47,798 bases of DNA from Bacteroidales bacterium (lineage in GTDB: Bacteria; Bacteroidota; Bacteroidia; Bacteroidales; F082), in contig JAKSMX010000021.1 of the NCBI GenBank assembly GCA_024400305.1, positions 1-47,798 of the forward strand. Reading direction: 5' to 3'. This document shows, piece by piece, positions 29,200 through 46,024 of the stretch; within the stretch, counting starts at the first letter, position 1, and each line of letters begins with the position of its first letter. Made by a program: the position numbers and the translations under genes. The notes below the pieces were generated by a model. The model saw only the letters and a program-made list of their open reading frames with translations, made no database searches and had not been told where the DNA came from.

Positions 29200-30612
29200 A
29201 TGGGAATTTACGTCAACGACACAATATGCGCAGTCTCGACGGCATCCGGAATGGGTGCCATCGCTGTCATAAGAATCTCCGGCGAGAGAAGTCACGAAAT
29301 AACACTTTCTGTTTTCAGAAAGAAGACTGGCGCATTGAATATCAACGATATAAAAGCTTACAAAGCGTATTTCGGCGAGATTTTCGACCCGAAATCAGAA
29401 AACAACGCCATGGTTGACGAAGTGCTTGTGACGTTTTTCAAAAATCCCCACTCCTACACTGGCGAAGACTCCGTTGAAATAAGCTGCCACGGCTCTGTTT
29501 ACGTGCAACAAAAAATCCTTGAACTCCTTGTAAACCAAGGCGCGCGCCTTGCCAGGCCGGGAGAGTTTTCAAAACGCGCCTTCATCAACGGGAAACTCGA
29601 CCTCACACAGGCCGAGGCCGTAGCCGACCTGATTTCATCGCAAAACGAGGCGTCGCACCGGATAGCCGTCAACCAGCTCAAAGGCGGATTCTCGAAAGAA
29701 CTGAAAGAGCTTCGCGCAAAGCTCCTCGACCTCACCTCGCTCCTTGAACTCGAACTCGACTTCTCGGAAGAGGACGTGGAGTTCGCCGACCGCACACAGC
29801 TGCACCAGATACTCGACGAATCACTCAATCACATCGGCAAGCTGACCGACTCCTTCAAGTTGGGCAACGCCATAAAGAACGGCATCCCCGTGGCCATCGT
29901 CGGCGAGACCAACGCCGGAAAAAGCACGTTGCTGAACGCCATCTTGGGCGAGGAACGCGCCATCGTCTCCGACATCGCCGGAACCACGCGTGACACCATT
30001 GAAGAGACTTTCAACATAAACGGGACGCTTTACCGTTTCATCGACACCGCCGGCATCCGCGAGACGACAGAGACAATCGAAAAAATCGGAATCGAGCGCA
30101 CCTTCCGCAAAATCTCCGAAGCCGACATCATACTTGGCGTGCTCGACCTCACCGAAAACTACGAAAACGTCTGCAAGTCGGCGGATCTGATAATCTCAAA
30201 AATCGATTCGCGGAAGCAGACATTATTGCTGGTCGGCAACAAACGCGATTTAGCCGGCTCCTTCCCCATCGCCAAGTTGCAAGAATCGTACAATAGCATC
30301 CCGTTTGCTTTCATTTCCGCAAAAGACACGACCGACATCGAAACACTGAAATCTCTGATTATCAACCATAGTGACATTCATAAGGTGACATCAAACGAAG
30401 CTCTGGTAACCAACGCGCGTCATTATGAGGCATTGGTTCATGCGGCGCAAAGTCTGCGCCAAGTCAGCGGCGGCATGGACATGAACCTGTCTGCCGACCT
30501 CTTGGCGGAGGACTTGAAGCAAGGACTTTATCATCTCGGCAGCATCACCGGCGAAGTGACGAACAACGAAGTGCTCGGGAATATTTTCGGGAGGTTTTGC
30601 GTGGGGAAATAG
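29200..30612 (+). CDS. mnmE: tRNA modification GTPase MnmE
   Basis: This 470-residue protein is full length. The N-terminal folate-binding domain has TICAVSTASGMGAIAVIRISG (as two adjoining blocks) and the PGEFSKRAFINGKLDLTQAEA stretch near 110-130. The G domain has the P-loop VGETNAGKSTLLN (about 230-242), GTTRD, DTAG and GNKRD. The C-terminus is FGRFCVGK with the conserved Cys of the FC[IV]GK motif. With MnmG it makes the 5-substituted uridine at position 34 of certain tRNAs. The start fits closely behind the tRNA-Arg terminator, and an IS remnant follows its stop. Confidence 0.97.
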   Translation: MGIYVNDTICAVSTASGMGAIAVIRISGERSHEITLSVFRKKTGALNINDIKAYKAYFGEIFDPKSENNAMVDEVLVTFFKNPHSYTGEDSVEISCHGSVYVQQKILELLVNQGARLARPGEFSKRAFINGKLDLTQAEAVADLISSQNEASHRIAVNQLKGGFSKELKELRAKLLDLTSLLELELDFSEEDVEFADRTQLHQILDESLNHIGKLTDSFKLGNAIKNGIPVAIVGETNAGKSTLLNAILGEERAIVSDIAGTTRDTIEETFNINGTLYRFIDTAGIRETTETIEKIGIERTFRKISEADIILGVLDLTENYENVCKSADLIISKIDSRKQTLLLVGNKRDLAGSFPIAKLQESYNSIPFAFISAKDTTDIETLKSLIINHSDIHKVTSNEALVTNARHYEALVHAAQSLRQVSGGMDMNLSADLLAEDLKQGLYHLGSITGEVTNNEVLGNIFGRFCVGK

Positions 30613-30657
30613 CCATTCTCCTCTTCCTGACATCCACCACAAACCGACACGTAAAAA

Positions 30658-30720
30658 CAGCAGGGCTTTACCACCTCAACTTTACAACAAAATGGTCTAA
30701 AGGAATGGGTGCATTATAGT
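30658..30720 (+). mobile_element. Solo IS3 right end
   Basis: CAGCAGGG, ACAACAAAATGGTCTAAAG and TGCATTATAG in order match the right end of the IS3 element at 9449-9508. No transposase remains. It lies between mnmE and the end of the defence operon, marking the left edge of that island. Confidence 0.8.
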
Positions 30721-30789
30721 ATTTTCTGATGTTTGGTTGTATATATTCCATCTTTTAAAATAACGTCTTTATTTATAAATCAATCGATT

Positions 30790-33700
30790 TCAATCTTTTA
30801 GAATGTTTTTCATCATAACATCCATATAGCTCGAATCCTTTTGGAACAACACATGACTTTCTGTAAATTTTTCCCTCACTCCTTCTGTCCAGAAACTCAC
30901 CTCTTCGTAATCAGTATTGCTCACAATATAGCTATCCAATATGATGTTGACATCGTCAAGAGTTGGCTCCACTTCTGACTTTAAGAGGTTGTAAAGCTGA
31001 ATTTTCGGGTCACTCAATCCTTTTAGGTTTCTTATTCCCTTTGGGTCAATGAAAGTTACATGTTGTTTTTCGCCGTCGTTCACCCACAGGATGAAATCGG
31101 GGTAGAAGTTGCTGGCCTCGAAGAAACCTATGCCTTTACGGCTTTCGTTGCGCAGCAGATACACTTCCTTGCCTTTAAGAACATCATCTTTATGCGCTTC
31201 GTAGTATTTCCTGACATACTCAACAAATGTGGATTCTCCTACGTTCAGTGCAACTGGCGAAATCTTGATGAGTGGCTCGTTGGTGTACTGGTCCTGAAGT
31301 ATTTTTCTTCCATTCGAATCTTTGTCACGAAGGCAAAGCAGAGGATAGTAAAGATGACGGTCGAAGCGCAAGGCGTGAATCCAACTGCTGTAAATGCTGA
31401 AATCGCGCTCCAAATTGCCCGAAATAATCTGTTCCCTTAGTTCGCGGAGCTTTTCAATCCACTCATTCTTGTCTTTCCTGACTTCTACGGTGTATTCCTC
31501 AAAGAAATTCGGGTCGTTGGCATCGATATATACCGATTCCATGAACTGGGCTTCCCATTTGCCTTTGCTGCGCTTATAAGCTCTGTCGATATATGCTCTC
31601 AGCAGTGCAATGGTAATTTCCTCCCATCGTGCCACATCTCGTCCGAAGTCATTAAATTCAAGGTCGGCTTTTTGAATGGTCAACTCATACCATGAAGGGT
31701 TCGCCATAAGATGCTGCAGCAGTTCAAGGCTCAGTTCCATGTTGTACCAGCTTCGCTCATTCTTCATCCGCTGGAGATTGAAATAAACCTTATTCCAATC
31801 AATTAAGGTCAAATGCTCCGAGGTGAGTTCGCCCGCATGGGCATCGACGGCTGTCTCCACCTTTGCCCCACGGCTATAAAGCGCTTCAACCTTAGGCGTC
31901 CAGTCAATTTTCACGCTGATGCTGTCAATAACATCCAAAGGATGAACCACAACCGATTTCTTGAAGTCGTATCCCTCTTTCAGGCGCACCACCTTGAGTT
32001 TGGTCTCACCCAAGAGATTGACGGTCGGTATCTGTATGGTTTCATACACTTCTTCGTTGGCCGGCAGACCCTCGTCTTCCAAATACTTGCGGAATGTGTC
32101 CATGTAATCGGCACGCACACCGAAGATGTTCAGCGTTTCAATGTCACGCAATCCTCTTGGCAGGTTGCCAGGGTTGAAACTGCTGTCTAACTTCGAACTG
32201 CGTTTCAGCGAATATTGGAACCCTTTCAAGCGCACGCCTCGGCCAAACAGCTGAATTATTTCAGATCCTTCGGAACGCCCCACATTCATCAGTCCCATTG
32301 CACTCACACGCCACGAACTCCAGCCTTCGTTGAACTTTTTCGAACCAATCAGAATGTTGATGCTTGAGCCTTCATCGTTGATTTTTTGGAACAAGGACAA
32401 ATTGCCGAATTCTTTCGTCTCGCATAGCAGGCCGCTTTCTTCGCAAAGCGACATCAGCTTGCTGCTGTCACCCACATTGATGACACCAAAGTAATCGGCA
32501 TTTCCTATGCGAAGGCCTATCTCTTCATCGCCGCCTTTCTGCTTGTCGATGTGGAGACGGGCATTGGGCACATCGCTATGGAAAATGACTTTCAGAATTT
32601 TGCCGTAGGTTTCACGGGCACGCTTGTCATCCTCATCATGCTTGTATCCCTCCTTCGCCAGCATGAAACTGTTGGCAAAAAGCGAATAGCCATGACTGTT
32701 CCTGATGCCATCATCAGGATCCAGCAGCCGCTTGATGTAACCTGTGAATTCCTCCGGTTTTTCGACAAAAGCCTGAATAAAGAGCAGTATCTGTGTGACA
32801 TCGCTCATCTGTCGTCCTCTGACGCTTTGAACGGCATTCACCGAACCGCCTACGAAAATGCCAAGCGGCCTGGCAATCAGAAAGCGATTTCTGACCAATG
32901 GACTTGCCTCGTATGCCAGGGTCTGTTCATAAAGGCAAAGCAAATAGGCCGTGAGATACATGTTCAGCAATTCCTCATCGTCCCACGAGGCCATGTTCAT
33001 GATGCGGTAATCCTTGCCGTAGCCGTCGTCATAGAAGTAACGGTATGAATAATCGAACAAGGTTGCCTTGCCGTATTCCCTGAGCAAGGCGTTTCTGCTT
33101 TCGCCCGACAAGGCTGCTATGGCCTGTCCGAAGGTGGCCGAGTACTCAAACGAGAAACCTTCTCTTGTCAGCACGTTGCGGTAGCCTTTCCACACTTCGC
33201 CGCCACTTCCTTTGTGGCCTTCGCCAACCAAAACGAGATTGTTGCCCTCGAAGCTCTCGACAGCCACGGTCTTGTCGCCATCGGTTTCCGCCAGCTTGTT
33301 GATGTCGATGACCTCGATGGTGTTTTTGCCGCCAAAGAAACCGCCTTGGCCTTGCTTCGAGAACAGTTCGGCATAGAAGCCCGAAGCTTGCAGATCGTCG
33401 ATGTGTTGGCGGCTCAGCCCCTCATTAGGTGTAAGGATAATGATGCGGTTCAGTTTCTTCGCATGGTGCTTTTCGGCGTAATAAAGATACTGCTTGATGT
33501 TGACATGCATCATCAAGGTTTTGCCCGAACCTGTGGCGCACCAGAAGGCAAGTTTGTTCAGGTCGTCTTCCGTGAAGTCGGGCATGGCGTGCCATGTCTC
33601 GGGACGAAAGTTGAAGTCCTCGGCCAAGAAGCGGTTAATGCCGTCGAGCAGGGCCTGCTTGTCGCTGAAATAACGGTCTAAGTATATTTCCGTAAAGAGT

Positions 33701-34014
33701 AAGGCAAGGTACTGGTAGTATTTCCACTTGATTTTTTCTTCACGGTGTTCGTTGATTTCGCGGGTGTATTGTACGATGTGCCGGTCATACTCGAAAAGCA
33801 TCTCCTCGCTTATCTCGAAACCGGCGAACAGATGAGCCTTCAGTGCGTAGTATATGCGCGAGGTGCCCTCGTCGTCGATACCTTCGAGCGAAGGATCTTT
33901 CAAGTCGGCGCTGAAAGCCTCCAAATCGTTGCACCCGAAGAGTTTCAGCATGTATTTGAAAAGCACCAATGCCTCTTGAAGCTTGGGCGGTTGTTGTCTT
34001 GTCGGTCTTGGCAT
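30790..34014 (-). CDS. Type III Res-like DEAD/DEAH helicase with C-terminal nuclease motif
   Basis: This 1074-residue protein is last in the seven-gene operon. Walker A is ATGSGKT at 160-166, and ILTPNEGLSRQH and EYSATFGQA are further helicase motifs. The motif VI region is QLFGRGVRLKG. The Walker B region reads LVLVGEGHKG with Gly264 where the family has Asp (codon GGC, one base from GAC), so ATP hydrolysis may be impaired. A PD-(D/E)XK-like site lies near the C-terminus: FYPDFILWV then HVTFIDPKG (about 980-1005). Together with the Mod-like methyltransferase it resembles a type III restriction pair, though longer. It starts two bases after partner B. Confidence 0.85.
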   Translation of the reverse strand: MPRPTRQQPPKLQEALVLFKYMLKLFGCNDLEAFSADLKDPSLEGIDDEGTSRIYYALKAHLFAGFEISEEMLFEYDRHIVQYTREINEHREEKIKWKYYQYLALLFTEIYLDRYFSDKQALLDGINRFLAEDFNFRPETWHAMPDFTEDDLNKLAFWCATGSGKTLMMHVNIKQYLYYAEKHHAKKLNRIIILTPNEGLSRQHIDDLQASGFYAELFSKQGQGGFFGGKNTIEVIDINKLAETDGDKTVAVESFEGNNLVLVGEGHKGSGGEVWKGYRNVLTREGFSFEYSATFGQAIAALSGESRNALLREYGKATLFDYSYRYFYDDGYGKDYRIMNMASWDDEELLNMYLTAYLLCLYEQTLAYEASPLVRNRFLIARPLGIFVGGSVNAVQSVRGRQMSDVTQILLFIQAFVEKPEEFTGYIKRLLDPDDGIRNSHGYSLFANSFMLAKEGYKHDEDDKRARETYGKILKVIFHSDVPNARLHIDKQKGGDEEIGLRIGNADYFGVINVGDSSKLMSLCEESGLLCETKEFGNLSLFQKINDEGSSINILIGSKKFNEGWSSWRVSAMGLMNVGRSEGSEIIQLFGRGVRLKGFQYSLKRSSKLDSSFNPGNLPRGLRDIETLNIFGVRADYMDTFRKYLEDEGLPANEEVYETIQIPTVNLLGETKLKVVRLKEGYDFKKSVVVHPLDVIDSISVKIDWTPKVEALYSRGAKVETAVDAHAGELTSEHLTLIDWNKVYFNLQRMKNERSWYNMELSLELLQHLMANPSWYELTIQKADLEFNDFGRDVARWEEITIALLRAYIDRAYKRSKGKWEAQFMESVYIDANDPNFFEEYTVEVRKDKNEWIEKLRELREQIISGNLERDFSIYSSWIHALRFDRHLYYPLLCLRDKDSNGRKILQDQYTNEPLIKISPVALNVGESTFVEYVRKYYEAHKDDVLKGKEVYLLRNESRKGIGFFEASNFYPDFILWVNDGEKQHVTFIDPKGIRNLKGLSDPKIQLYNLLKSEVEPTLDDVNIILDSYIVSNTDYEEVSFWTEGVREKFTESHVLFQKDSSYMDVMMKNILKD

Positions 34015-34016
34015 AA

Positions 34017-34682
34017 TTACCAGTTATAAGGTGAAGGGTATTTAACTTGAACGAAAGTAAAGCCATGCTCCATTCTTTGCGTAGTTTGAGAAGCCATATT
34101 TGACCTAACGGAGCTAAACACCTGAACATTGGAGCGAGCGTTTCCGTGAACACCAACGACAGGAGTGTCAGGCACATCATAATCTCGCCATGCGAACAGG
34201 CATACTTTTTCAGGATAAGTAAGAAGGTTAACGGCGGTTGTTGATTCTTTTAGCAGGACATCAATTGAACGTTCCATCTGCTGTCGAGCTTTAGCGCGTT
34301 TACCCATAGGATATTTCCCCTTGTTTGGCTCAACATATTTTTCCTCATAACAGCAAAGGTCACAAAAAACAATCTTATTATGGGCCATCCCGCTTTCTGT
34401 CAAAATAAGGTCACACCTATCAGCGATATTCGCATTAGTACCAATGAACTGCTCAATGTATTTTTCAAATCTAACGACTGCCACTTCAACTCCATTAGTA
34501 TCAACTTTAAGGATTTCTACATTACAATCCGACCTGCTACCTCTATTGGCATGACATTGATTGCAAGCCATTTCGTCTGATTCGGCAAAAGAGGTATTGT
34601 GTCGGCATATTGGCACATTTACAGAACCAGATGGCAAACCGTATTCCACAGGAAACGCATATTTCAGCAAAGATTCAATCAT
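34017..34682 (-). CDS. Partner B: small nuclease-like protein paired with ATPase B
   Basis: I do not recognise this 221-residue protein by name. Its N-terminal part is Cys-rich (C26, C40, C43, C53). In the middle, RCDLIL (D91) and KIVFCDLCCYEEKY (D108, C110) sit where partner A has TADCAL and MVEFK, followed in both by an Ala/Lys/Gln-rich helix. It looks like a PD-(D/E)XK-type core in which the second acidic residue is Asp and the usual Lys is Cys, so catalysis is uncertain. It overlaps ATPase B by 4 bases and precedes the helicase by 2 bases. Probably the effector or sensor half of an ATPase pair. Confidence 0.6.
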   Translation of the reverse strand: MIESLLKYAFPVEYGLPSGSVNVPICRHNTSFAESDEMACNQCHANRGSRSDCNVEILKVDTNGVEVAVVRFEKYIEQFIGTNANIADRCDLILTESGMAHNKIVFCDLCCYEEKYVEPNKGKYPMGKRAKARQQMERSIDVLLKESTTAVNLLTYPEKVCLFAWRDYDVPDTPVVGVHGNARSNVQVFSSVRSNMASQTTQRMEHGFTFVQVKYPSPYNW

Positions 34683-35833
34683 ACGTCCAAACTTACATAT
34701 TCCCGATAAATGGCATTCATCATTTCCGACAGGTCGTAGGTGTCAACAATCCAATGTCCGTTTTCATCCCTGACAATCAGGTCTTGTGTTTCACCCTCGA
34801 AAATGCGATACACCGCCAGATTCTCAGGCGTCAGCTTTGCCCGTCCTTCTTTCGTCTGGTTCAGAACGATATTAAAATAATTCAGAATATAAGGGCTATG
34901 CGTTGCCAGCATCAAGTTTAGTTTGCGGTCGGCAGCGGCATGAGTGACTGTGTAGATGAGTCCCTCGATAAGCTGGCACTGGGCATCGGGAAACAGGCTT
35001 AACTCAGGTTCTTCGATGTGGATGAAAACATTCTTGGGCAATTCCGTTGGCTCGCTGGCAGCCTTGAATTTACTTAAATTCTCGGTTTCGTACAAATAGC
35101 TCATCACAGAACGATTAAAAGCTTCCTTAAACGAGAAACCTTTAGAGAAATAGTCAACAATCAGAGCCAAAGGAGCAGAAGTCTGAATGCCAGAAGAAGC
35201 TTCGTTCAGTTCGATAGGAGTATGGCGATTGTCAGCAGGTATTATTTGATAACGTGTTGGTTTACCTTTGGGGTGAGTAATCACCATCTTCATGCCAACA
35301 AAGTCCATAACCAATTCCTTGTCTCCTTCTGATGCACTTCCAAAATCGTCGTTGGTTTCATGGAAATAGAAACCCAATGTGGCGCCTTTATTCTTCCATG
35401 ATGTTTGTGTCCATGTGGGAATTATGTTGCGATTTTCCGAGATGAATGAGTTCTTGCAAAACATCAAATGTTTCTGTTCTATAATTTCTGTTTTTTTCAA
35501 ATTCCCGTTTTCTATACGCACTTCATAGCTTCTTCCATCATCCGTTTGTACACGGTAAACAATCAAGCTATCCTTTGAAAACATCTTGGTCATACACTGG
35601 CGTTTCATCATCGAGTCAAGACGGATTCTGAAAGGAGACTTCGTGATTTTCGAACGATAGAGATACGAACGTATATTTGCCATCTTGTACAGATAGCGCA
35701 TCATGGCAACAACCTTCATCAGCGTACTCTTGCCGATGGCTGATTCACCAATCAGCACGGTGAACTGCTTTAATTCGAGGTCCTCGATATTTTTCAGAGG
35801 CCCAAAATTCTTTATGGTTATGTATTCTTTCAT
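34679..35833 (-). CDS. ATPase B, AAA_15/OLD-like ABC-type ATPase
   Basis: This 384-residue protein starts with a typical N-terminal strand MKEYITIKNFGPLKNIEDLEL and Walker A GESAIGKST at 29-37. EASSGIQTS lies in the signature position. The C-terminal half has Walker B VFIHIEEPELSLFPDA and the switch MLATHSPYILNYF. It is SMC/Rad50-like, without a long coiled coil and without a TOPRIM domain. The same three motifs in the same wording occur in ATPase A (39500-40708), so the two are paralogues. With partner B it resembles two-gene defence modules such as PARIS or Septu in layout only. Confidence 0.85.
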   Translation of the reverse strand: MKEYITIKNFGPLKNIEDLELKQFTVLIGESAIGKSTLMKVVAMMRYLYKMANIRSYLYRSKITKSPFRIRLDSMMKRQCMTKMFSKDSLIVYRVQTDDGRSYEVRIENGNLKKTEIIEQKHLMFCKNSFISENRNIIPTWTQTSWKNKGATLGFYFHETNDDFGSASEGDKELVMDFVGMKMVITHPKGKPTRYQIIPADNRHTPIELNEASSGIQTSAPLALIVDYFSKGFSFKEAFNRSVMSYLYETENLSKFKAASEPTELPKNVFIHIEEPELSLFPDAQCQLIEGLIYTVTHAAADRKLNLMLATHSPYILNYFNIVLNQTKEGRAKLTPENLAVYRIFEGETQDLIVRDENGHWIVDTYDLSEMMNAIYREYVSLDV

Positions 35834-35853
35834 TGTATCAATGTTTTTTTCTA

Positions 35854-38800
35854 TTATTCCTTCTCAAACATCCGTTTTGCAAATTCCTCTTCGGTGAGCA
35901 CCACTTTCCAGTTCTCGTCGTCGCGGCGCAGGTTGGGCAGCGTGTTGTCGCCGTTCACATATATCACATCGAACTCCGAGTCGCGGGTGCGGAAATCCAT
36001 GTGCCGGAAGAACTCGTTGAGTGCTTCGTTGCCAATCGCCTTGCAGTTGCGCCATATCACCAAAGTGCGCAGCTTGTCGCGGTGGGTGCGGCCAATGACG
36101 ACGCAGATGTTGCCGTCGCGGTACCAGCCTTCCGTTTCCACTTCCAGGCCGATGAGGTAGTTGAAGGTCTCCACCATATCGACGGGCGTTTCAACCAGTT
36201 CGTTGTCCTTGGTGGTTTTGAGCGTCATGGCAAAGGGGTTCTCGAACATTTTCAGATTCAGGAGCGAATCCTTGGTTTCGGTGTCGAGCATGTAGCTGAG
36301 CATGTAGCTCTCCCTGAAACCCTCGTTGGTGCTGATGGCGGTCTGCCTTTGCTTCACTTCCAAGTTGTTCAGCGTGTCTTCGTATTGCTCCAAACGGATG
36401 TATTTGAAACACTGGCTGATGCCGTTGCGCGAAATGGGTTTGCCGTCGCGCCAATCAGGAGAATATGATGCACGTTGCGTACGGGTTCGCATAGCCTTAT
36501 CAAAATATTCAGCCATGTCTATAAGAATATATTTGCGTTTACCACTCTCTCCGTCTTCTTTATTCAAATTCATTATAGCATGACTCGTTGTTCCACTACC
36601 TCCAAAATAATCAATAACAATAGCGTCAGAATGGCATCCTGATACCCGAAGACAATCTTCTACAGCATGAATAGATTTTGGATATTCAAATGGAATGCCC
36701 ATGCGTTTTAGCAAATCTGTTCCATGCTCAGTTGCTGAATATTTTGAATCATCCCATGTGGTTAAAGGCTGAACACCATCATTAGGCCTTCTTCGATAAT
36801 AAACGTAAATTACGCCGTCTTTTTTCTCAGCTTTTAGTTTGTCAACATGATAAACGATATTCTCAATCCCGAAATACCAACATCCCTCAGTTCCATCATC
36901 CTTAATTGGATAAGCTATAATTTCATTTTCTTTTGGTTCTTCAAAAACATCATAAGCTTGGATCTCTTCATTGTATTTCATTGAAGGAAGACGAAGTTTA
37001 TTCTCTTCTTGATTCCAAAACAAAGGATAAAACATAGTTGGTCTGTTTTCTCTATGAGAATTAGAGCCAGCCTTTCTTAGCATTTCCCAAAAGAATGGAC
37101 CTTCATCGTCCCTTTCTCTATATCTTGCCTGTAAACGTTCATCGCGTGATAAACGTTTAATTGATATGTTTTCATTTTTTTTGCTGAAAAGCCCATATTC
37201 ATGGGAAATAGCAAAACCGTTAGGAATAGGCCTTCCTGATGGCTTAATTCGAATTGTAACAACTTCGGGACGCGCACCAAATACTTCTTCAAGAAGAATA
37301 TTTAGTTTACTTTGTTCAACATCATCAATTGTAGTACACTGAATGCCATTATTATTAAGAAGACTATTACCGAGTTCAAGTCGGCTTTCCATCAAACTAA
37401 GCCAAGATGAGTCCTTGTAGTTATTCTTGTACATGATTTCACTGGCACTTGTATTGTATGGAGGATCGGCATAAATACAAGTCACTGCATTGTAATATTT
37501 TTCCTGCAACAGTTCCAAAGCCTGGAAATTCTCGCTGTTTATCAGCAGACCGTTGCACTGTTCGTCGATGTTTTCCATGCTGGCTATGAGCTTGTGCTTG
37601 AAGGCGGCAGGGAAGAAAGCCGTGTCGAGCACAAGGAAAGGGTTCTGCTTGAGGAACTCTTCGGTAAGCGGGTCGCTGTAGCCCACGTTCACCAGGTCGC
37701 CCTTAATCTCGTCAATCGCAAACAGGCGCACCCATTCCTCGCGCTGGCGGTCGTTGGCGCAGATTTCGCCATAAAGCGTTTCGGGCACGCGGTCGAGGGT
37801 GATGCAGTAGTCGCACTGCACCACGAACTTCTTCTTCAGCCAGAGGCGTTTCTGGAAATCTTCCAGTTGCGCCAGCATCAGTATGATTTTTTCGCCCACC
37901 TGCTTGATGGCCTTAATGATGGTGAGTTGTGCGCCGATGTGTGCGGCATCGAGGTCGTCGAGGTGCATCACCTCGTTCTTGATGTAGAAGTCAAGCTCGC
38001 GGCGGAGGAAACCGCCAAGGTCTTTGTGAATGAAGTAGTCGAACGAGTTCTTGGCGGTGTAGTCGGTCAGGTGCTTTTCGAGCAAGGTGCGGTTGGCATC
38101 CTTGGCGGTCGGTGCCTTGGTGGTGAGCAGTTCCGCGAAAGCCTCGGGCACGGCGGGCCTTATGACAGCCAAGGCCTCGGCGAGGAGCGCGTCCTGCTTG
38201 GTGGCTTTCGGCATCAGCTCGTAGGTGAAGTATATGTTGAGACCGTCGTCGTTCACTTCAAGGAAAGGCTGTCCTTCTTCAGCACACAAGGCGAAGCGGC
38301 GTTCCATGTTGTTGGCGGCCTTGTTGTTGTTTTGTTCGGTCGAGGCGTCTTTCAGCACGAAATGCACCTTGCGTCGGCTTGCGGGCAGCACGAAGCTGTA
38401 GTCGCGGAAATACTCCGACGATTTTATATAGTACTGGTCGGCATTGGCCCAGTGGAGCTTCACTTCCTCGCCGTTGTAGGGAATGGCGTAGGTGTTGTCC
38501 TTGTAGCGGCGCTTTGAAACGAAGTCGCCGTTGTCGTAATAGCGGCTGAAGAAGGTGACGAGGTGCGAGAACACGTCGTTTTGCAGGGCGGCTGTGTCGG
38601 CTGCCGATTCGAGTTTCTGCTTCAGCTGCTGGTATTCGGGGTTGGCGTCAGCCGAAGCCCCGAACGAGGCGGCCTGCTGTTCAATCTCCTTCATGCGGGC
38701 GATGATGGAGGCCGTGTCGTTGGCGCCGTCGCCCTCGAGCACCTTTTTGACTTGCGGCAGCAGGTCGTGCTCGAGAAACTGCATGATGTCGTGCCGTTTC

Positions 38801-38901
38801 TGGTTCATGATGCGGTAGATGCCGAAGTCGAGTTCGGCGTGGTCCATCATGAATATTTCCTTGAGTTTCGCTACGAAGGCGTTGTAGTAGTTTGTGGACA
38901 T
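35854..38901 (-). CDS. Type III Mod-like adenine DNA methyltransferase, 1015 residues
   Basis: A long N-terminal region (about 1-460, AELDFGIYRIMNQKR near residue 20) precedes a beta-class amino-methyltransferase: motif IV YADPPYNTSASE at about 475-486, a target-recognition region, and motif I DYFGGSGTTSHAIMNLN at about 762-778. The order IV then I defines the beta class, as in type III Mod proteins, which methylate adenine. A C-terminal region of about 200 residues follows. Normal Mod proteins are 600-700 residues. The stretch about 36470-37480, covering motif IV to just past motif I, is visibly more AT-rich than both flanks, suggesting replacement of the specificity segment. Confidence 0.88.
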   Translation of the reverse strand: MSTNYYNAFVAKLKEIFMMDHAELDFGIYRIMNQKRHDIMQFLEHDLLPQVKKVLEGDGANDTASIIARMKEIEQQAASFGASADANPEYQQLKQKLESAADTAALQNDVFSHLVTFFSRYYDNGDFVSKRRYKDNTYAIPYNGEEVKLHWANADQYYIKSSEYFRDYSFVLPASRRKVHFVLKDASTEQNNNKAANNMERRFALCAEEGQPFLEVNDDGLNIYFTYELMPKATKQDALLAEALAVIRPAVPEAFAELLTTKAPTAKDANRTLLEKHLTDYTAKNSFDYFIHKDLGGFLRRELDFYIKNEVMHLDDLDAAHIGAQLTIIKAIKQVGEKIILMLAQLEDFQKRLWLKKKFVVQCDYCITLDRVPETLYGEICANDRQREEWVRLFAIDEIKGDLVNVGYSDPLTEEFLKQNPFLVLDTAFFPAAFKHKLIASMENIDEQCNGLLINSENFQALELLQEKYYNAVTCIYADPPYNTSASEIMYKNNYKDSSWLSLMESRLELGNSLLNNNGIQCTTIDDVEQSKLNILLEEVFGARPEVVTIRIKPSGRPIPNGFAISHEYGLFSKKNENISIKRLSRDERLQARYRERDDEGPFFWEMLRKAGSNSHRENRPTMFYPLFWNQEENKLRLPSMKYNEEIQAYDVFEEPKENEIIAYPIKDDGTEGCWYFGIENIVYHVDKLKAEKKDGVIYVYYRRRPNDGVQPLTTWDDSKYSATEHGTDLLKRMGIPFEYPKSIHAVEDCLRVSGCHSDAIVIDYFGGSGTTSHAIMNLNKEDGESGKRKYILIDMAEYFDKAMRTRTQRASYSPDWRDGKPISRNGISQCFKYIRLEQYEDTLNNLEVKQRQTAISTNEGFRESYMLSYMLDTETKDSLLNLKMFENPFAMTLKTTKDNELVETPVDMVETFNYLIGLEVETEGWYRDGNICVVIGRTHRDKLRTLVIWRNCKAIGNEALNEFFRHMDFRTRDSEFDVIYVNGDNTLPNLRRDDENWKVVLTEEEFAKRMFEKE

Positions 38902-38913
38902 ATACTTCTAATT

Positions 38914-39516
38914 TTAGTATTCTCTTTTGTTTTCAAAAAAAGTCGGAGGCATTTTGGCATTCTTTGGTTGCATGGTCAAATTCATTATATCCGCACGAGC
39001 GCTAGTAACACCTAAGGTTGCGTCAAATACAACATATAATTCTTGAATAGGGAAAAAAGATCTTAAATCTATTCCTTGATCTCTAAATAGTCTAACTATC
39101 TTTTTATAAGTTTTATGCAATTGTTCTTTCGCATTTTTTGCATTATTTTTGATTTTATCCTCACTGAATGCATTTGTCTTGAATTCCACCATGGTGAAAA
39201 TTTGGTTTGTCATCAAAGCACAATCTGCTGTTCCTCCAGGAGTCCAATTTTTGGCTGTCATCAATTTATGATCTATCTGTAGTAAAACTATTTGATTTTT
39301 GTTATTGTTGATAATGTGAAATGTTTTATTGACGAAACTTGGTGTGGAGTTTTCCCAATCTGAATAGGAATATTTAGTATCATAGGCATATAAATCACTA
39401 TCTGAAGAATAATCATAACAGCTCGCTACATCTGTACTACAACTCGGAGCAAAAACTGATTCTATATGAAGCTCATTGATTATTTCAGGAATATTTCCAC
39501 TAGCGAGTCTTGACAT
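38914..39516 (-). CDS. Partner A: PD-(D/E)XK-like protein paired with ATPase A
   Basis: This 200-residue AT-rich gene has a nuclease-like core: GGTADCAL (D98), then TMVEFKTNAF (E111-F-K113), followed by a Lys/Ala-rich helix NNAKNAKEQLHKTYKKI and strands ELYVVFDATLGV. This fits a PD-(D/E)XK site with all three key residues. Its order of elements matches partner B. It overlaps the end of ATPase A by 17 bases and is followed by the methyltransferase after 12 bases. Probably a DNA-cutting effector controlled by ATPase A (inference). The N-terminal 60 residues, Ser/Asp/Tyr-rich, are not recognised. Confidence 0.6.
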   Translation of the reverse strand: MSRLASGNIPEIINELHIESVFAPSCSTDVASCYDYSSDSDLYAYDTKYSYSDWENSTPSFVNKTFHIINNNKNQIVLLQIDHKLMTAKNWTPGGTADCALMTNQIFTMVEFKTNAFSEDKIKNNAKNAKEQLHKTYKKIVRLFRDQGIDLRSFFPIQELYVVFDATLGVTSARADIMNLTMQPKNAKMPPTFFENKREY

Positions 39517-40708
39517 ATAGGCGATATAAAGAGTTAAAAGTACGCATTATTGAGTCTGAAGCAGAGTCCAAGTCGTTCTTTGAAATCATCAAAGTTCCCT
39601 GGTCAAGGATGCTTTTGCAATAGGAATCACTATTAGGATTCAAGCGATATGCAGCTAAAGTGCCAGGTTTAATGCAATACTCATTTGAAATAATATTCGA
39701 AGCCGCAAGTTTGCTCTGTTCATTTTCATGAACATTGCCAGCCATTATTAAAGTATTCATAATGGCCAACGAATAAGGACTATGAGTGGTAATGACCAGC
39801 TTGTTGTTAGGATTACTCTGATTAACCTTGCACAACAACTTCAAGACTTCCAACTGAGATTCAGGGAACAAACTTAATTCCGGCTCTTCAACAATGTTGA
39901 CGAAAGAGTCGTAACGAGTCTGAGCCGACAATCTTTTTATCAGTATCTCTTTCAACGTATCAGATAAATTTCTGTCGTCCATGATTTTTGAAATGTCTTT
40001 CTGAAGTTTTTGCAATTCATCCACAGATAACGGTCTGTCTTTTCCTGAGAGAACTATATTGTTCAAATGATCGGACACCATGCATATTGACAGTGATGAC
40101 TGTATCCCGCTGGAAGCTTCTGTCAATCTAACCTTGTAACCAGGACCATATATAAAGCTAATGTCGTTTAATGTGTCATATTTATACTCCAAGTTTCCAA
40201 ATGGGAGCTTATATCCGTCTTTAAATCTGTCTTTTGATTCCCAAAAACTCTGATTGAAAGTCATGTTGTTTTCAGGAAGACCTTCAAATGTTTTCAGTTT
40301 CTTTTCAGCCGAACTCAAAATGATTCTCTCGGCCGGCACATACATTATTTTGGGCAGTCCTTCAAATGTGGTTTTTTTGTCTGTAACATGAAAATTCTTT
40401 TTTTCATACTCAAAATCATAAAGTTGTCCACTATAAAACAGATAAGTCTCCTCGTCATTAAAAAAGTTGTCGATTCTATGATAAGCGCATAACGTTTTTT
40501 TGAAACGGGCATCTATATACTTTTCAAAATAATCTAATGAATATTTGCGTGTGATCAAAGCTTTCTCCAACCATTTAAACATTGAGAAAAGCTTTGCCAC
40601 GCAACTCTTTCCCGACCCCTGATCGCCGATAAATAATGTGACCTTCTTGAATACGATATCCAAGTCTTTGACAGGGCCAAATGATTTTACAATTAATCTT
40701 TCGTTCAT
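39500..40708 (-). CDS. ATPase A, AAA_15/OLD-like ABC-type ATPase
   Basis: This 402-residue protein has the N-terminal strand LIVKSFGPVKDLDIVF, Walker A GDQGSGKS at 28-35, EASSGIQSS in the signature position, Walker B SFVNIVEEPELSLFPESQ and the switch VITTHSPYSLAIMN. The wording EASSGIQ, EEPELSLFP and THSPY is shared with ATPase B, and lengths are close, so the two arose by duplication or from sister modules. It starts 6 bases after the SNF2 helicase stop. The gene is AT-rich compared with the helicase and methyltransferase flanks. Confidence 0.85.
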   Translation of the reverse strand: MNERLIVKSFGPVKDLDIVFKKVTLFIGDQGSGKSCVAKLFSMFKWLEKALITRKYSLDYFEKYIDARFKKTLCAYHRIDNFFNDEETYLFYSGQLYDFEYEKKNFHVTDKKTTFEGLPKIMYVPAERIILSSAEKKLKTFEGLPENNMTFNQSFWESKDRFKDGYKLPFGNLEYKYDTLNDISFIYGPGYKVRLTEASSGIQSSLSICMVSDHLNNIVLSGKDRPLSVDELQKLQKDISKIMDDRNLSDTLKEILIKRLSAQTRYDSFVNIVEEPELSLFPESQLEVLKLLCKVNQSNPNNKLVITTHSPYSLAIMNTLIMAGNVHENEQSKLAASNIISNEYCIKPGTLAAYRLNPNSDSYCKSILDQGTLMISKNDLDSASDSIMRTFNSLYRLYVKTR

Positions 40709-40714
40709 AACTAT

Positions 40715-43552
40715 TTATTTAATTTTCCAATGTATCATAAACATCATCTGGCTTTCAGATGACTGTATCATTCTTTTTTCCAATTCGTCAATCATGTTCT
40801 TGCGCTGCTCGGCAATCTCATCCTCTTTGTCTTCAAGCTCATTGCGCAAACGCCGCTTCTTGCGGTTCAGCTCATCAACACTGCGCTGGAACTCGATTTT
40901 TTCCTGCATGTTAGTTGCGCTGCGGCTGTCGCGCTCGGCCTGTTGGATGGCTTTCTTGACTGAGGAAAGTTCCTGCTCGATGCCATCGAGCATGTCGCGT
41001 TCCCAAGCGTAGATGCGGTCTTCCTCCTGCCTCGCCATCACAAGGTTGCGGTTGTCAATGCTTGCAAGTTTCGACTTTGTGTGTTGCAATATATCTTGTT
41101 CAAGAATTGTCCTTATTGAATCAGGCACGATGCAGGTCCCGACTTCAACACCACCGTTCAGAAGCATCTTTTCACAATCCTCCTGACTCAAATTATATCC
41201 GTCATCTGTAACAGCATTGAATATAGAATATTGCTCTTTGTCGAGTGATGTCACACTCAATTTGTCAAGCATCATATAACCCTGTCGTCCATGCAGATAT
41301 TCAGGCAGATTGGCATTCATCGACATGGCGGATTCATCAAATACAACGTCCCCGCACTCTGAAAGTTCAATCGACAATGCCGTGTTGATGACATGCTGCC
41401 CCAACGTATCGTTCAAACGATATGGCTTTGCATCTGCATTGTTGTCAAGAAGTGCATATTTGCCAGCACGATGTCCTGCGACTGGTGTCTTCAACATGAA
41501 CGTGTGATATTCATCATTGAATACAGCTCTGGAACTTAGAACGAACTTGGTCAACTCCCAGAATATGTGTTGATAACGGTTCAGAAAAGCGCCGGTGTCG
41601 TCCTTCCTGATACGGAGATGCTCTTGGACATTGATGTCGAAGTTATCTATCACTTCAGCACGTACTGCCGACATCCTCTCGTCTATCTCAGCCTGCATTT
41701 CCTGTTGCAGTTTCTCAAACGCCGCATTGATCTCTTCATTGCTCCGGCATTTTTGGTATATCTCCCAAATACGGCTTTCAATGTCAATGGTGTCGGCACT
41801 GCCAAGAACCTCATCACTTGCGCCAAAAACATCGTCAAACAACTTGAATTTGTCAGACAGAAGATCAAACACCCTTACGTCCGCATAGTTTCTGTTGTTT
41901 ATGAAATTGACAACCACGACATCGAATTTCTGCCCGTAACGGTGACATCTGCCAATCCGTTGTTCTATCCTCTGCGGATTCCAAGGCAAATCGTAGTTTA
42001 TCACGAGTGAGCAGAACTGAAGGTTCAATCCTTCCGACGCGGCTTCTGTCGCAATCATAATTTCTGCCGATGACTTGAAATAGTCAACGACAGCGGCGCG
42101 ACGATCGGCCGCTTTTATGCCGCTTACTTTTTCCGGGTGTCGGCTGCACCACTTCTTGTATATCTCGTTGGTCTGGGATTCACTCGATTTGCCGTTGAAC
42201 AAGACGACACGACCCCCGTAGCCATTCTTTTCAAGAAAGTCCTTTAAGAATGATTGAGTTTTAGTTGATTCCGTGAATATAAGAGCCTTTCTCTCCGCAC
42301 CTCCTTCGTCAAGTTTCTTGAACGATTCTTTCAACGCTTTTAGCAGTGCCGCCGCTTTAGACTCATGTTTGATATCTGTCGCCTTGGCTATGAAGCCATC
42401 TAATGTCTTTATTTCAGCTTTTAATTTGGGGATGTCAACCTCATCCTCATCTGACAAAACCACATCATCACTGGTATCATCGTCAACACTGTCATCCATG
42501 CATTCCCATTCGTCATAGTCGTCAACGATGTCTTCGGGTTTGAATTCCACATTGGTTTCTTTTTCAAGCATCCTGACGAGACGGTCTCTTAAATGTGTAA
42601 GTGTTGATATGAGGGCATACGTTGAGCTGGCGAGGATCTTGCGGACAATCATCGTTATCAGTTTCTTCTGCGAGGCTGGAACGCTGTAAATGTCGTCTCT
42701 TCTCAAAAAATCAGACACAAGTTGGTAGAGTTCAAATTCTTTGTCAGTGGAATTGAACTTCTGTGTCAGTGGCAGTCTGTTTGTATAGTTGATATATTCG
42801 CGGACATCTTTTCTCAGCGTCCTTGTAAATACCGGCGCAAGCCTTTTTCTCAGTTCTTCAAGATTGTCGCCTCTGCCATATTCATTTTTGAAACTCTTCT
42901 CACTGCCGAAAATATGGTCATCGATAACCGTTGTCAGTCCGAATAACTCAAGCAGAGAGTTCTGAAATGGTGTCGCTGTGAGAAGCAGTTTCTTAACTCC
43001 GTAGAGTGCGTCCCGGACATCGGCGGAGGTCTTTGCACTTTTACGATAGACGTTTCTGAGTTTATGTGCTTCATCAACAACGGCGAGGTCAAAACCGTGA
43101 ACCACGATGTCACCCTTGTGTTTTGCCGCGAAATTATAACTGCAGATTATCACACGAGGCTTCTGAAACGGATTCTTTCCTTCTTTCTGATATGCCTTGA
43201 AATTCTTTGTATCAATTATCTCACTTTCAATGCCGAACTTATCATGAAGCTCCGCCTCCCATTGTTTGCGCAATGACGCCGGACAGACGACAATTATCTT
43301 TTTCCTGCCTGTTGACCAATACTGGCAAAGCACAAGCCCGGCCTCGATTGTTTTGCCGAGACCGACTTCATCAGCAAGGACAACACCTTTGCTCAAAGGT
43401 GATTTGAATGCAAACAACGCTGCGTCTATCTGGTGAGGGTTTATATCAACGGTTGAAGACAACAGGGATTGGGAAATGGTGTCAATGTCACCGCCCACCA
43501 CCTGCGACGACAACAGACTTGCATAATATTTGGCATGAAAACGAGTAATCAT
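40715..43552 (-). CDS. SNF2-family helicase, 945 residues, first gene of the defence operon
   Basis: Motifs are complete: INPHQIDAALFAFKSPL, Walker A DEVGLGKT at 61-68, CPASLRKQW, Walker B VVDEAHKLRN (DEAH at 160-163), TATPFQNSLLELFGL, and in the second lobe ATEAASEGLNLQFC and PWNPQRIEQRIGRCHRYGQ. The C-terminal 100 residues form a charged coiled coil (EFQRSVDELNRKKRRLRNEL). It resembles RapA/HepA and the DISARM DrmD type of SNF2 ATPase, which translocate on double-stranded DNA. A near-perfect promoter lies 49-79 bases upstream. It leads the seven-gene unit. Confidence 0.9.
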   Translation of the reverse strand: MITRFHAKYYASLLSSQVVGGDIDTISQSLLSSTVDINPHQIDAALFAFKSPLSKGVVLADEVGLGKTIEAGLVLCQYWSTGRKKIIVVCPASLRKQWEAELHDKFGIESEIIDTKNFKAYQKEGKNPFQKPRVIICSYNFAAKHKGDIVVHGFDLAVVDEAHKLRNVYRKSAKTSADVRDALYGVKKLLLTATPFQNSLLELFGLTTVIDDHIFGSEKSFKNEYGRGDNLEELRKRLAPVFTRTLRKDVREYINYTNRLPLTQKFNSTDKEFELYQLVSDFLRRDDIYSVPASQKKLITMIVRKILASSTYALISTLTHLRDRLVRMLEKETNVEFKPEDIVDDYDEWECMDDSVDDDTSDDVVLSDEDEVDIPKLKAEIKTLDGFIAKATDIKHESKAAALLKALKESFKKLDEGGAERKALIFTESTKTQSFLKDFLEKNGYGGRVVLFNGKSSESQTNEIYKKWCSRHPEKVSGIKAADRRAAVVDYFKSSAEIMIATEAASEGLNLQFCSLVINYDLPWNPQRIEQRIGRCHRYGQKFDVVVVNFINNRNYADVRVFDLLSDKFKLFDDVFGASDEVLGSADTIDIESRIWEIYQKCRSNEEINAAFEKLQQEMQAEIDERMSAVRAEVIDNFDINVQEHLRIRKDDTGAFLNRYQHIFWELTKFVLSSRAVFNDEYHTFMLKTPVAGHRAGKYALLDNNADAKPYRLNDTLGQHVINTALSIELSECGDVVFDESAMSMNANLPEYLHGRQGYMMLDKLSVTSLDKEQYSIFNAVTDDGYNLSQEDCEKMLLNGGVEVGTCIVPDSIRTILEQDILQHTKSKLASIDNRNLVMARQEEDRIYAWERDMLDGIEQELSSVKKAIQQAERDSRSATNMQEKIEFQRSVDELNRKKRRLRNELEDKEDEIAEQRKNMIDELEKRMIQSSESQMMFMIHWKIK

Positions 43553-43600
43553 TTACTAATCAACACATTAAATCAATATTATCCCAACATCTTCTTTTTG

Positions 43601-43631
43601 CAAAGATATGCACTTTTTTCTTTCATGCAAA
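43601..43631 (-). promoter_or_regulatory. Promoter of the seven-gene operon
   Basis: On the minus strand, TTTG (complement of 43628-43631), exactly 19 bases, then TATCTTTG (complement of 43601-43608). The leader to the SNF2 start is about 45 bases. It separates this operon from the HNH/XRE unit. Confidence 0.8.
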
Positions 43632-43741
43632 CTTTTTGAACAACAAATATATACATAAATGTGAAAAAGGAGACCAACATCTGACACATGATATTAAAAT
43701 CCATGTGCCAAATGTTGAAATATAATAATTCCCAGCCATCA

Positions 43742-44680
43742 TCAGCAGAAATCATCAAAGACCTCACCTCCAGCCCACTCCTTACCTTGCGCCAAAATGA
43801 AACTTTTGTCAAGACCATCCCTGTGAAAATAAGTGCCACGACTTTTGTGAACGAAATACCCATCTGACAAATATACTTCAGAAAGCGCCCATTCTTTTGT
43901 TGCACCTTTATTTTCAGTCGCGACAAACAGTTTCGCCTTATCTTCCGACAATGCAAAATCAACCACATTTGATTTCCACCAAGTATTCGATGAAAAAACC
44001 ATGCCACAAGTCATGTTGTTGTAATAATCAATGATATTTGCATTTTCAGATTTAGGACACATTGGAAATTCAGTCGGCGTTTTCCAGTTTTCCTGCGCGA
44101 CATTTGGTGTCAACGATTTATAGAATACTGGTTCAATGTCCAACTCATCATCAATGGAATTTTCATGTCGTTCATCATAAATTTCATTCCAGATTCTTTG
44201 ACTTTCAAGGTTTATTTCCCTTTTTCTGTCAACCTGTCTTATTTCAAATGACTTTTGCGACTGACTTGCAATCTTATCTCTCAACATTGACGGATTTTCA
44301 ATAAACGCTTCAATGCTTCCACAACACAACTCGATCTTTTTCCTGGTTATCGGGTTATTGAGAGCATTTTCAAGTTTGGTAACCCAACGTAAATTTTCGG
44401 GACGGTTATTCTGCCTGTTTGTATCAATGTGATCAACAACATGTTGCGCTGTAGGTGCATCACCATGAAAGGCTGTCGCAACTATACGATGAACCTGTAC
44501 AGAGGCTATAAACAAATACCCGGTTTCATTTGAGAAGCCAAAAGTCCAAATGTCGTCAAGTTTCCTTTTGGTTTTTCCTTCTCTTTGCAAACGTTTGACG
44601 GCTCCATTGTCACGGACAAGGTAATTCTCACCCTTGTACACACAAGATTTCTCCTGTGTGAAATCATTGATTTCAACCAT
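43742..44680 (-). CDS. HNH endonuclease
   Basis: This 312-residue protein has a homing-type HNH_3 core: VQVHRIVATAFHGDAPTAQH, then VVDHIDTNRQNNRPENLRWV (about residues 80-100), giving the His-Asn-Asn nuclease set. An N-terminal NUMOD4-like start (YLVRDNGAVKRLQ) precedes it. The C-terminal 190 residues are not recognised; they include WWKSNVVDFALSEDKAKLFV and YFHRDGLDKSF. It lies 12 bases after the XRE gene and so is in its operon. It may be an accessory nuclease of the island or a separate selfish gene. Confidence 0.75.
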   Translation of the reverse strand: MVEINDFTQEKSCVYKGENYLVRDNGAVKRLQREGKTKRKLDDIWTFGFSNETGYLFIASVQVHRIVATAFHGDAPTAQHVVDHIDTNRQNNRPENLRWVTKLENALNNPITRKKIELCCGSIEAFIENPSMLRDKIASQSQKSFEIRQVDRKREINLESQRIWNEIYDERHENSIDDELDIEPVFYKSLTPNVAQENWKTPTEFPMCPKSENANIIDYYNNMTCGMVFSSNTWWKSNVVDFALSEDKAKLFVATENKGATKEWALSEVYLSDGYFVHKSRGTYFHRDGLDKSFILAQGKEWAGGEVFDDFC

Positions 44681-44692
44681 GTTTCCAGAATT

Positions 44693-45151
44693 TTAGAGTT
44701 CGACAATATCAACTTTCATTCCCAATGCAGTCGCTATTTTTGACAGCACATCAAACCCTGTAGAGTATCTTCCTTGTTCTATTCGACACAGGTTTGCTGC
44801 ATCAATGCCAGCCTTTGCCGCCAGTGTTTTCGCATCAATCTTCTTCTCTTCGCGAAGTTTTCTGATTTTTGCTCCGATACGTTCACGTTCCTGATTTTTG
44901 TCAAGACCAACGCTGAAAATGCCATTACAATTATTCTGGTACAAGCACCTGTTCACCGCACCCCAGATAGAATTCATTGTGCCATCATAAGACCTGTCAA
45001 ACGCATCTTCAAGAAGTTTGGTGAAGTAATGGTCAAATCTCTCATCTATCTGATAATTCATCGAATCAGGAAACGTGATAATGTAATTTTCTCCCGAATT
45101 TGTTTCGGCACAAACGGTTTTTTCGTCTGTAAAATAAACTTTTGTAGTCAT
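44693..45151 (-). CDS. XRE-family transcriptional regulator
   Basis: This 152-residue protein has an unknown 85-residue N-terminal region (YFTDEKTVCAETNSGENYII) and a C-terminal Cro/C1-type HTH (IGAKIRKLREEKKIDAKTLAAKAGIDAANLCRIEQGRYS, as successive blocks, residues 92-135). Having the HTH at the C-terminus is less usual and recalls DUF2442-plus-HTH or toxin-antitoxin regulators. A palindrome over its own start site (45202-45215) suggests autoregulation, and it may also act on the defence operon. Confidence 0.75.
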   Translation of the reverse strand: MTTKVYFTDEKTVCAETNSGENYIITFPDSMNYQIDERFDHYFTKLLEDAFDRSYDGTMNSIWGAVNRCLYQNNCNGIFSVGLDKNQERERIGAKIRKLREEKKIDAKTLAAKAGIDAANLCRIEQGRYSTGFDVLSKIATALGMKVDIVEL

Positions 45152-45201
45152 AAAGTAATTTGCCGTATTTTAAGTGTTGTCGCCACTTTTAATGATTATT
45201 T

Positions 45202-45227
45202 GTCCAATATTAGACACCGCAAAAATA
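45202..45227 (-). promoter_or_regulatory. XRE promoter with overlapping palindrome
   Basis: On the minus strand, TATTTTTG (complement of 45220-45227) is followed after 4 bases by the palindrome GTCTAATATTGGAC (45202-45215, 6 of 7 pairs), where transcription would begin. It fits an operator for the XRE protein. Confidence 0.45.
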
Positions 45228-45276
45228 CAAAAAGGAACAATACGATTGGCAAATTTGCCAATAATTTGCAAAAAAT

Positions 45277-45882: not shown

Positions 45883-46024
45883 AAAAAAAAAGGGTTCTTA
45901 CGGTGAAGCCGCAAGAAACCCCTGATATGCCACTCGACAAGGTCGTCACTGCCGACCGATGAGAGTGAAACTCTATTTATTTTACATTAACCTCAATGTC
46001 GTGTTGAAGCCGTTGCCGTACGCT
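45883..46024. other. Intergenic
   Basis: No gene seen. It separates the inverted-repeat element from the polysaccharide genes. A hairpin-like stretch (GTCGTCACTGCCGAC) lies at about 45943-45958 and may end the minus-strand capsule transcript. Confidence 0.35.

Follow-up and report, generated by a model that had tools for sequence, protein, structure and literature searches.

A type III-like restriction core that probably carries exchangeable defence cassettes in a Bacteroidales bacterium

Gene content of the operon

The DNA analysed here (the window) is a 47,798-base contig, JAKSMX010000021.1, of the 2.86 Mb genome of a Bacteroidales bacterium (assembly GCA_024400305.1), and our subject is a putative defence operon of seven genes at positions 30790–43552. 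All seven lie on the minus strand, with the gaps of 6, 12, 20 and 2 bases and the overlaps of 17 and 4 bases that a first-pass annotation had listed and that the coordinates bear out. Three of the genes resemble a restriction-modification (R-M) core: an SNF2-family, DrmD-like helicase/translocase (core gene 1, 40715–43552, 945 aa), a Mod-like, type III-like DNA methyltransferase (core gene 2, 35854–38901, 1015 aa) and a Res-like superfamily 2 (SF2) helicase with a C-terminal PD-(D/E)XK motif (core gene 3, 30790–34014, 1074 aa). The SNF2|Mod junction (slot 1) holds ATPase A, an OLD/ABC-like protein related to PDC-M29A (39500–40708, 402 aa), and partner A, a predicted PD-(D/E)XK nuclease (38914–39516, 200 aa). 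The Mod|Res junction (slot 2) holds ATPase B, an OLD/ABC-like, divergent PDC-M29A relative (34679–35833, 384 aa), and partner B, a PD-(D/E)XK-like protein with an altered active site (34017–34682, 221 aa). In our reading, to which we assign a probability of about 0.7, the locus is a three-gene type III-like R-M core whose two junctions are both slots for autonomous defence cassettes, occupied here by two separately acquired PDC-M29-like pairs.

Nine window proteins were scanned against the PADLOC models and also against Pfam. The SNF2 protein had DrmD as its best PADLOC match (PDLC02619, 689 bits) and matched SNF2-rel_dom in Pfam (PF00176, 1.3e-31), and all 50 aligned members of its family retained Walker A GKT and DEAH. 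The best PADLOC match of Mod was MTase_III (PDLC03646, 734 bits), with N6_N4_Mtase (PF01555) in Pfam, and among solved structures it resembled Mbo45V (2.1e-25), a Mod (1.4e-23) and EcoP15I Mod (2.7e-19). The typical motif order of a type III Mod is DPPY ahead of FxGxG, and the window protein has this arrangement, with DPPY at residue 479 and FGGSG at 766; DPP was invariant in the family alignment (50/50) and its tyrosine nearly so (49/50). Res gave REase_III as its best PADLOC match (PDLC03654, 677 bits) and ResIII in Pfam, and no match to solved structures at 0.001.

The Res family as a whole has the features of a type III Res, that is, an intact Walker A (GKT, 50/50), Walker B and a PD-(D/E)XK motif (nuclease PD 50/50, DPK 49/49). 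In the window copy the Walker B aspartate is replaced by glycine at residue 264, while the other 79 of the 80 readable copies (82 Res sequences, two not readable at this position) carry aspartate. Since the Walker B aspartate is lost, the Res motor is probably impaired in the source genome, if residue 264 is not a sequencing error.

Occurrence of the core and occupancy of its junctions

Loci for comparison, numbered with the prefix L, came from 80 Mod relatives retained out of 455 on genome contigs and from finds in 393 genomes of the order, 10 of which, including the source genome, had a Mod match at E <=1e-50. Apart from the Mod of the operon, the source genome contains a partial match at 35% but no other full-length copy. 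None of four same-genus genomes had a Mod match at E <=1e-50, and in the stretches compared MnmE was the sole window protein matched, leaving no empty site readable. Among L013–L092, Res lay downstream of Mod in all 62 loci with >=3.5 kb on that side, and SNF2 lay upstream of Mod in 54 of 67 loci with >=3.5 kb there, the two genes overlapping in L040 and L085; the association of SNF2, Mod and Res is beyond chance. By annotation, a Conchiformibius plasmid carries the same gene types in the order Mod–Res–SNF2 (L173:8974–18322), an arrangement that gives supporting evidence for a functional link of SNF2 with Mod and Res.

Cargo filled slot 1 in 13 of the 62 loci with SNF2 upstream and was missing from the other 49, a count that takes one genome twice (the Mod proteins of L004 and L040 are identical and their contigs equally long). 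Of the 81 loci with Res downstream, 32 had cargo in slot 2 and 49 had none. Complete cores numbered 59, including the window: 33 had no cargo, 14 had cargo in slot 2 only, two in slot 1 only and 10 in both. They spanned 11 named phyla (Bacteroidota 38, Bacillota 5, Planctomycetota, Melainabacteria and Pseudomonadota two each, six further phyla once each), with three cores lacking a phylum assignment, plus the window. On a Mod tree of 86 sequences, by a quick method, the filling of slot 1 changed at least 9 times and that of slot 2 at least 18 times. In PLSDB, 26 of 72,556 plasmid records had a Mod match at E <=1e-50, and 12 of the 26 are predicted to be conjugative. The core layout was inspected in four of these records, which included the E. 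coli plasmid pEC316_2 with both slots empty, the Aeromonas plasmid pE31A with an ATPase and a DUF4276 gene in slot 2, and the Hymenobacter plasmid pHsw1 with three genes, among them a large ATPase, in slot 1; the fourth was the Conchiformibius plasmid described above.

The slots contained 75 open reading frames (ORFs), 71 of them outside the window, and 18 of the 75 fell into one BLAST-linked ATPase cluster. From the 71, a hand-picked set of 27 was annotated (19 with PADLOC, 19 with Pfam), and 17 of the 19 proteins scanned with PADLOC matched a model, the misses being in L029 and L056. The matches comprised HEC-01A/B (DUF4276), NsnA/B/C with GmrSD_N (one NsnC match being weak, 2.8e-4), Ppl (PHP-ATPase), PDC-S02 (YhcG nuclease), PtuA with PtuB (Septu), an AriA/PtuA-like ATPase of 648 aa, PDC-S01, PDC-S32, a HEC-06-like protein and PDC-M55C; Septu-type cargo was found in L044 and, by BLAST cluster, in L078. 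Pfam added a polyvalent-type kinase, Fic, RhuM and GmrSD, and gave no family above cutoff for the Nsn-type proteins L036 s2_2, L043 s2_2 and L078 s2_2. Judged by the labels and clusters of slot ORFs in complete cores, PDC-M29-like pairs occupy both slots in the window only.

Four loci with closely similar cores (L033, L034, L036 and L044; SNF2 95.7–97.4%, Res 94.0–98.0% and Mod 66.8–91.1% identical) differed in cargo. L033 carried Ppl only, L034 a 118-aa slot-1 ORF and HEC-01, L036 a 118-aa slot-1 ORF identical to that of L034 together with Nsn, and L044 Septu and the 648-aa ATPase; L077, whose SNF2 is 84.6–88.6% identical to those of this group, had no cargo. Between L033 and L036, the best-resolved case, nucleotide similarity ended at the Mod stop codon and came back at the L033 Res start, indicating that the ends of the cargo coincide with the ends of the core genes. 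The specificity region of a type III Mod is expected between its catalytic motifs. Similarity was lost there in three of the five Mod pairs profiled (L033/L036, L033/L044 and L034/L044), and the other two (L033/L034 and L036/L044) differed elsewhere, which points to swapping of Mod specificity in some, not all, pairs. The L044 Mod departs at its C-terminus too, possibly through a frameshift.

Origin of the two ATPase–partner pairs

The best PADLOC match of ATPase A was PDC-M29A at 1e-104 over residues 4–394, which places it in that family, and ATPase B also had PDC-M29A as its best match, at 3.7e-29 over residues 4–325. Both ATPases matched AAA_15/AAA_21 in Pfam and, more weakly, AriA and PtuA in PADLOC, and a short stretch of ATPase A, 48 residues long, matched an OLD-family protein of solved structure (2.3e-4). 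Across the phylum, PDC-M29A was matched at E <=1e-15 in 27 of 395 genomes, the source genome included, and in none of 14 control genomes; the best 17 matches scored 558–634 bits and the next three 445–464, compared with 349 for ATPase A.

In the ATPase tree, ATPase A was sister to L137 and L138, both outside a core (support 100/99), while ATPase B grouped with L013 and L051 (support 100/100) and then with L112, L145 and L114. ATPases A and B are 30% identical and their partners 23%. We considered duplication of one pair within the operon and rejected it on account of the different nearest kin and the 30% ATPase identity; because of the different kin and the low identity between A and B, the pairs appear to represent two acquisitions and not a recent duplication.

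Pair B has a counterpart in slot 2 of L013, where the ATPase is 76% and the partner 64% identical and the core proteins are 70–75% identical, consistent with joint inheritance of pair B and core between the window and L013. Between these two loci the nonsynonymous divergence (dN) was 0.15–0.28, and synonymous sites (dS) were saturated in four of the five genes compared, making dN/dS unusable. The L051 ATPase shares 78% identity with ATPase B, although the core proteins of the two loci share just 41–56%, and the L051 pair lies upstream of SNF2; pair B therefore probably also moved independently of the core. The partner in L051 (4835–6632) is only 33% identical to partner B, having diverged far more than its ATPase.

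Related pairs occur outside the core. None of the three core genes was matched in the 12–17 kb read around the pairs of L137–L141, L143 and L144, and the pair of L144 is neighboured by a UvrA-like protein, a chloride channel and a protease. Cassettes of an ATPase and a partner were also seen within glycosyltransferase/O-antigen clusters (L143:7214–9039, next to an O-antigen ligase, and L171:4124–5687). A methyltransferase gene lies close to the pair of L145 and probably also to that of L155. In L145 (6168–11572) a typical PDC-M29A ATPase and a pair resembling pair B, about 2.4 kb apart, flank an N6_N4 methyltransferase gene, and by its gene content this locus is another methylase-linked double loading. 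ATPase A had tblastn matches at E <=1e-10 in three plasmid and two phage records; scans of viral contigs with either ATPase or with the partner A family yielded no relatives. One phage ATPase, from Microcystis phage Mic1 (L170:2986–4224), shares 41% identity with ATPase A across 79% of its length, and the next annotated gene, on the opposite strand, encodes a DNA adenine methylase. Partner A had matches at E <=0.01 in 14 of the 393 genomes of the order, the source genome included, many of them weak, and their surroundings were taken from seven of the other 13 genomes.

Taken together, these sequence comparisons indicate that core and cargo are separable, that the filling of the slots has changed many times and that related pairs occur without the core.

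Partner proteins A and B

An alignment of seven sequences of the partner A family had M1, D82, D98, E111, K113 and Q132 as invariant columns, and we take this pattern to be that of a PD-(D/E)XK nuclease. In profile comparisons with hhalign, the partner A family aligned with a PDC-M29B-like profile at 98.5% (E 3e-15), and partner B aligned with the same profile at 70% (E 3.9e-5) and with the partner A family at 66%. The PDC-M29B model itself matched the partners of L137, L138, L144 and L145 (best E 5.7e-6 to 2.6e-9); at E <=10 it matched neither the window partners nor that of L013, and the L143 partner had no match to it. Partners A and B are thus linked to PDC-M29B by profile similarity through their relatives. 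The partner A profile had no match among solved structures at E <=1.

At the position of the ExK motif, partner B and its L013 relative read D-L-C, and the L051 relative reads D-L-G. Cysteines 40, 43, 53, 90, 107 and 111 of partner B were invariant among the window, L013 and L051, and K128 and K131 among these three and L114. Partner B therefore probably has changed chemistry, and these few sequences suggest either that the catalytic lysine has moved or that the site works differently.

Relationship to known systems

The first-pass annotation had likened the operon to DISARM, and of this only the DrmD similarity of the SNF2 protein remains. In common with class 1 DISARM the locus has a DrmD-like SNF2 protein, but none of the nine scanned proteins had drmA, drmB or drmC as its best match; DrmA appeared as a weaker cross-hit of SNF2 only, and SNF2 scored 688 bits against the NCBIfam model DISARM_DrmD_b, under the equivalog cutoff of 950. 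The comparison of the pairs with PARIS and Septu did not hold either. All combine an OLD/ABC ATPase with a small effector, but the window partners look PD-(D/E)XK-like, and neither has a family match to AriB (TOPRIM/DUF4435), the partner in PARIS, or to PtuB, the HNH partner in Septu. Hma was also considered and rejected: HmaA matched SNF2 at 173 bits, below DrmD, and HmaB was absent from the 22 matches of Mod. HmaC was not among the best 25 matches of each ATPase.

Type III R-M systems methylate one strand at an asymmetric site and cut between two sites. With them the locus shares a Mod similar to those of Mbo45V and EcoP15I, a Res that combines an SF2 motor with a PD-(D/E)XK motif at its C-terminus, and the position of Res downstream of Mod; it differs in its long Mod (about 1015 aa), in the SNF2 gene upstream and, in some loci, in the cargo between the genes. 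With PDC-M29 it shares the near-full-length match of ATPase A and the partners linked via relatives, but it differs in having two divergent pairs inside a type III-like core and an altered motif in partner B. The literature searched, which mostly excluded subscription papers, contained no match for PDC-M29 and no named two-slot SNF2–Mod–Res system.

The idea of embedded defences reportedly originates with a 2024 preprint by Payne et al. The accessible parts of two reports describe defence genes nested in other immune operons (guilt-by-embedding) and name Hma as the platform (PMC12988326, PMC10855318); the nesting is the same here, but the platform is an SNF2–Mod–Res core with two slots and not Hma. 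OLD-ABC ATPases with PD-(D/E)XK, HNH or TOPRIM nucleases are proposed, in the available text of another report, as backup effectors in BREX and BREX-related loci (PMC12839542), and older work cited there on OLD-ABC/nuclease couplings in RM-like systems may cover loci of the present kind. The modules are the same, but the window core is type III-like and had no PglZ or DUF499 match. In R-M operons linked to MORC proteins, type III-type or SWI2/SNF2 helicases occur with accessory ATPases (PMC2292703); those ATPases are GHKL proteins, and an SNF2–Mod–Res core with cargo in its junctions is not described in the portion of that report available to us. Embedding as such is therefore known, and we found no description of a two-slot SNF2–Mod–Res core.

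Interpretation

As judged from its gene content and relatives, the operon resembles a platform onto which additional antiviral modules are loaded. The first-pass annotation had proposed a composite system, and this stands in so far as SNF2, Mod and Res form a conserved core to which ATPase pairs are separate, recurring add-ons. The notion of a defined seven-gene system does not, since none of the 58 other complete cores, judged by the labels of their slot ORFs, carries both pairs, although L013 carries pair B. That annotation lacked the division into core and cargo, the helix-turn-helix (HTH) and HNH genes upstream, and the altered motifs of Res and partner B. The possibility it had raised that the pairs are insertions confined to this strain applies to pair A, seen in a core only here, and not to pair B, which recurs in L013 and upstream of SNF2 in L051.

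We infer defence, sensing, nuclease activity and co-regulation from these comparisons. Mod would methylate the asymmetric sites of the cell's own DNA, and Res, with SNF2, would translocate on and cut unmodified incoming DNA. Each ATPase would sense a phage cue and then set its partner nuclease free, which would add a second layer, the layers being kept together by shared transcription and shared transfer. A role of the pairs as a backup or guard layer is suggested by analogy, because the accessible text of PMC12839542 puts forward OLD-ABC modules as backup effectors in BREX-type loci, and from the description of PARIS given there.

Several observations weigh against this interpretation. The loci compared, 80 kept of 455, are biased to close kin; cargo is absent from more than half of the complete cores (33/59), and 13 of 67 loci have no SNF2 upstream of Mod. 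Annotation covered 27 of the 71 slot ORFs outside the window, and certain short ORFs may not represent genes. A defensive role is not evident for all cargo, examples being a sigma-70-like protein in L053 and an HTH protein with an M78 peptidase in L042, and L029 and L043 s1_0 had no Pfam family above cutoff. The ATPase tree gave long-branch warnings, with long branches meeting elsewhere in the tree, and pair A was found in no other core among the loci compared. Neither partner has a direct match to any PADLOC family, even at E 10, or a Pfam match, and the AlphaFold2 models of both are unusable (predicted local distance difference test score, pLDDT, 35 for A and 38 for B).

The shared strand, the short gaps and overlaps and the retention of pair B beside the core in L013 are also what one would expect of a single integrated machine of seven proteins, with the ATPase pairs as obligate subunits assisting Mod, Res and SNF2 in choosing or cutting DNA. 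We regard this as highly improbable, given the 33 complete cores that have no cargo, the closely similar cores that carry different cargo or, in L077, none, and the related pairs that exist without a core. Another reading is that the pairs are selfish or addictive cassettes, similar to toxin–antitoxin modules, that hitch-hike on a mobile R-M system to no antiviral benefit: a PD-(D/E)XK-type partner adjoins each ATPase, related pairs lie in unrelated settings such as the glycosyltransferase clusters of L143 and L171, and relatives of Mod occur on plasmids, with 12 of the 26 records predicted to be conjugative. However, annotated cargo elsewhere is rich in known or candidate defence models, and the repeated capture of varied ATPase–nuclease modules by one core suggests use, so we consider this explanation unlikely.

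Decay of the locus, with Res inactivated and the pairs left over from past insertions, would account for the Walker B change, seen in the window alone among 80 readable copies, and for the missing ExK lysine of partner B. It appears quite unlikely, as none of the seven reading frames is interrupted, L013 and L051 share with partner B the D-L-C or D-L-G state, dN to L013 remains at 0.15–0.28 with synonymous sites saturated in four of five genes, and the Res change may be a sequencing error. One might also speculate that the core is a modular immune chassis in which slot 1, the Mod specificity region and slot 2 can all be exchanged and whose cargo guards it, firing when restriction is blocked, and that here the chassis has lost its Res motor, marks DNA by methylation and carries regulated guards, with pair A as the main effector; we view this elaboration as unlikely.

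If the locus is a core with two cargo slots, as we favour, the closely similar restriction cores with different second-layer defences form a natural series, in which the same core with swapped cargo makes testable the question of why defences nest. Annotation family by family would probably see an R-M system and a few unconnected candidates in the operon and miss the reuse of its junctions. Should the ends of cargo generally match those of core genes, this would provide a simple search rule for new modules.

Upstream region and neighbouring genes

A pattern search of positions 30000–46000 found a promoter-like sequence of the Bacteroidetes type just upstream of SNF2 (43601–43631, minus strand), scored with what we take to be the Bacteroidetes consensus. 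Other matches on the minus strand were at 43677, 45253 and 45841, with none within the seven genes, the number of matches being given without a chance control. Further upstream, a gene on the minus strand (44693–45151, 152 aa) encodes an Xre-type HTH protein (HTH_3, 1.1e-8; PADLOC Control_protein, 6e-8), a possible regulator. A small ORF adjoins the SNF2 start in 22 of 52 other loci, and an HTH domain was found in five of 10 hand-picked small ORFs upstream of SNF2 (from eight of the 22 loci and two plasmids); regulation of the operon by the HTH protein is plausible. Between the HTH gene and SNF2 lies a gene resembling an HNH_3 homing endonuclease (43742–44680), possibly an intruder in the junction of regulator and core. 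Elsewhere on the contig, a conflict-type gene at positions 21777–22676 encodes a Fic-domain protein whose weak Bro-N match falls short of the curated cutoff.

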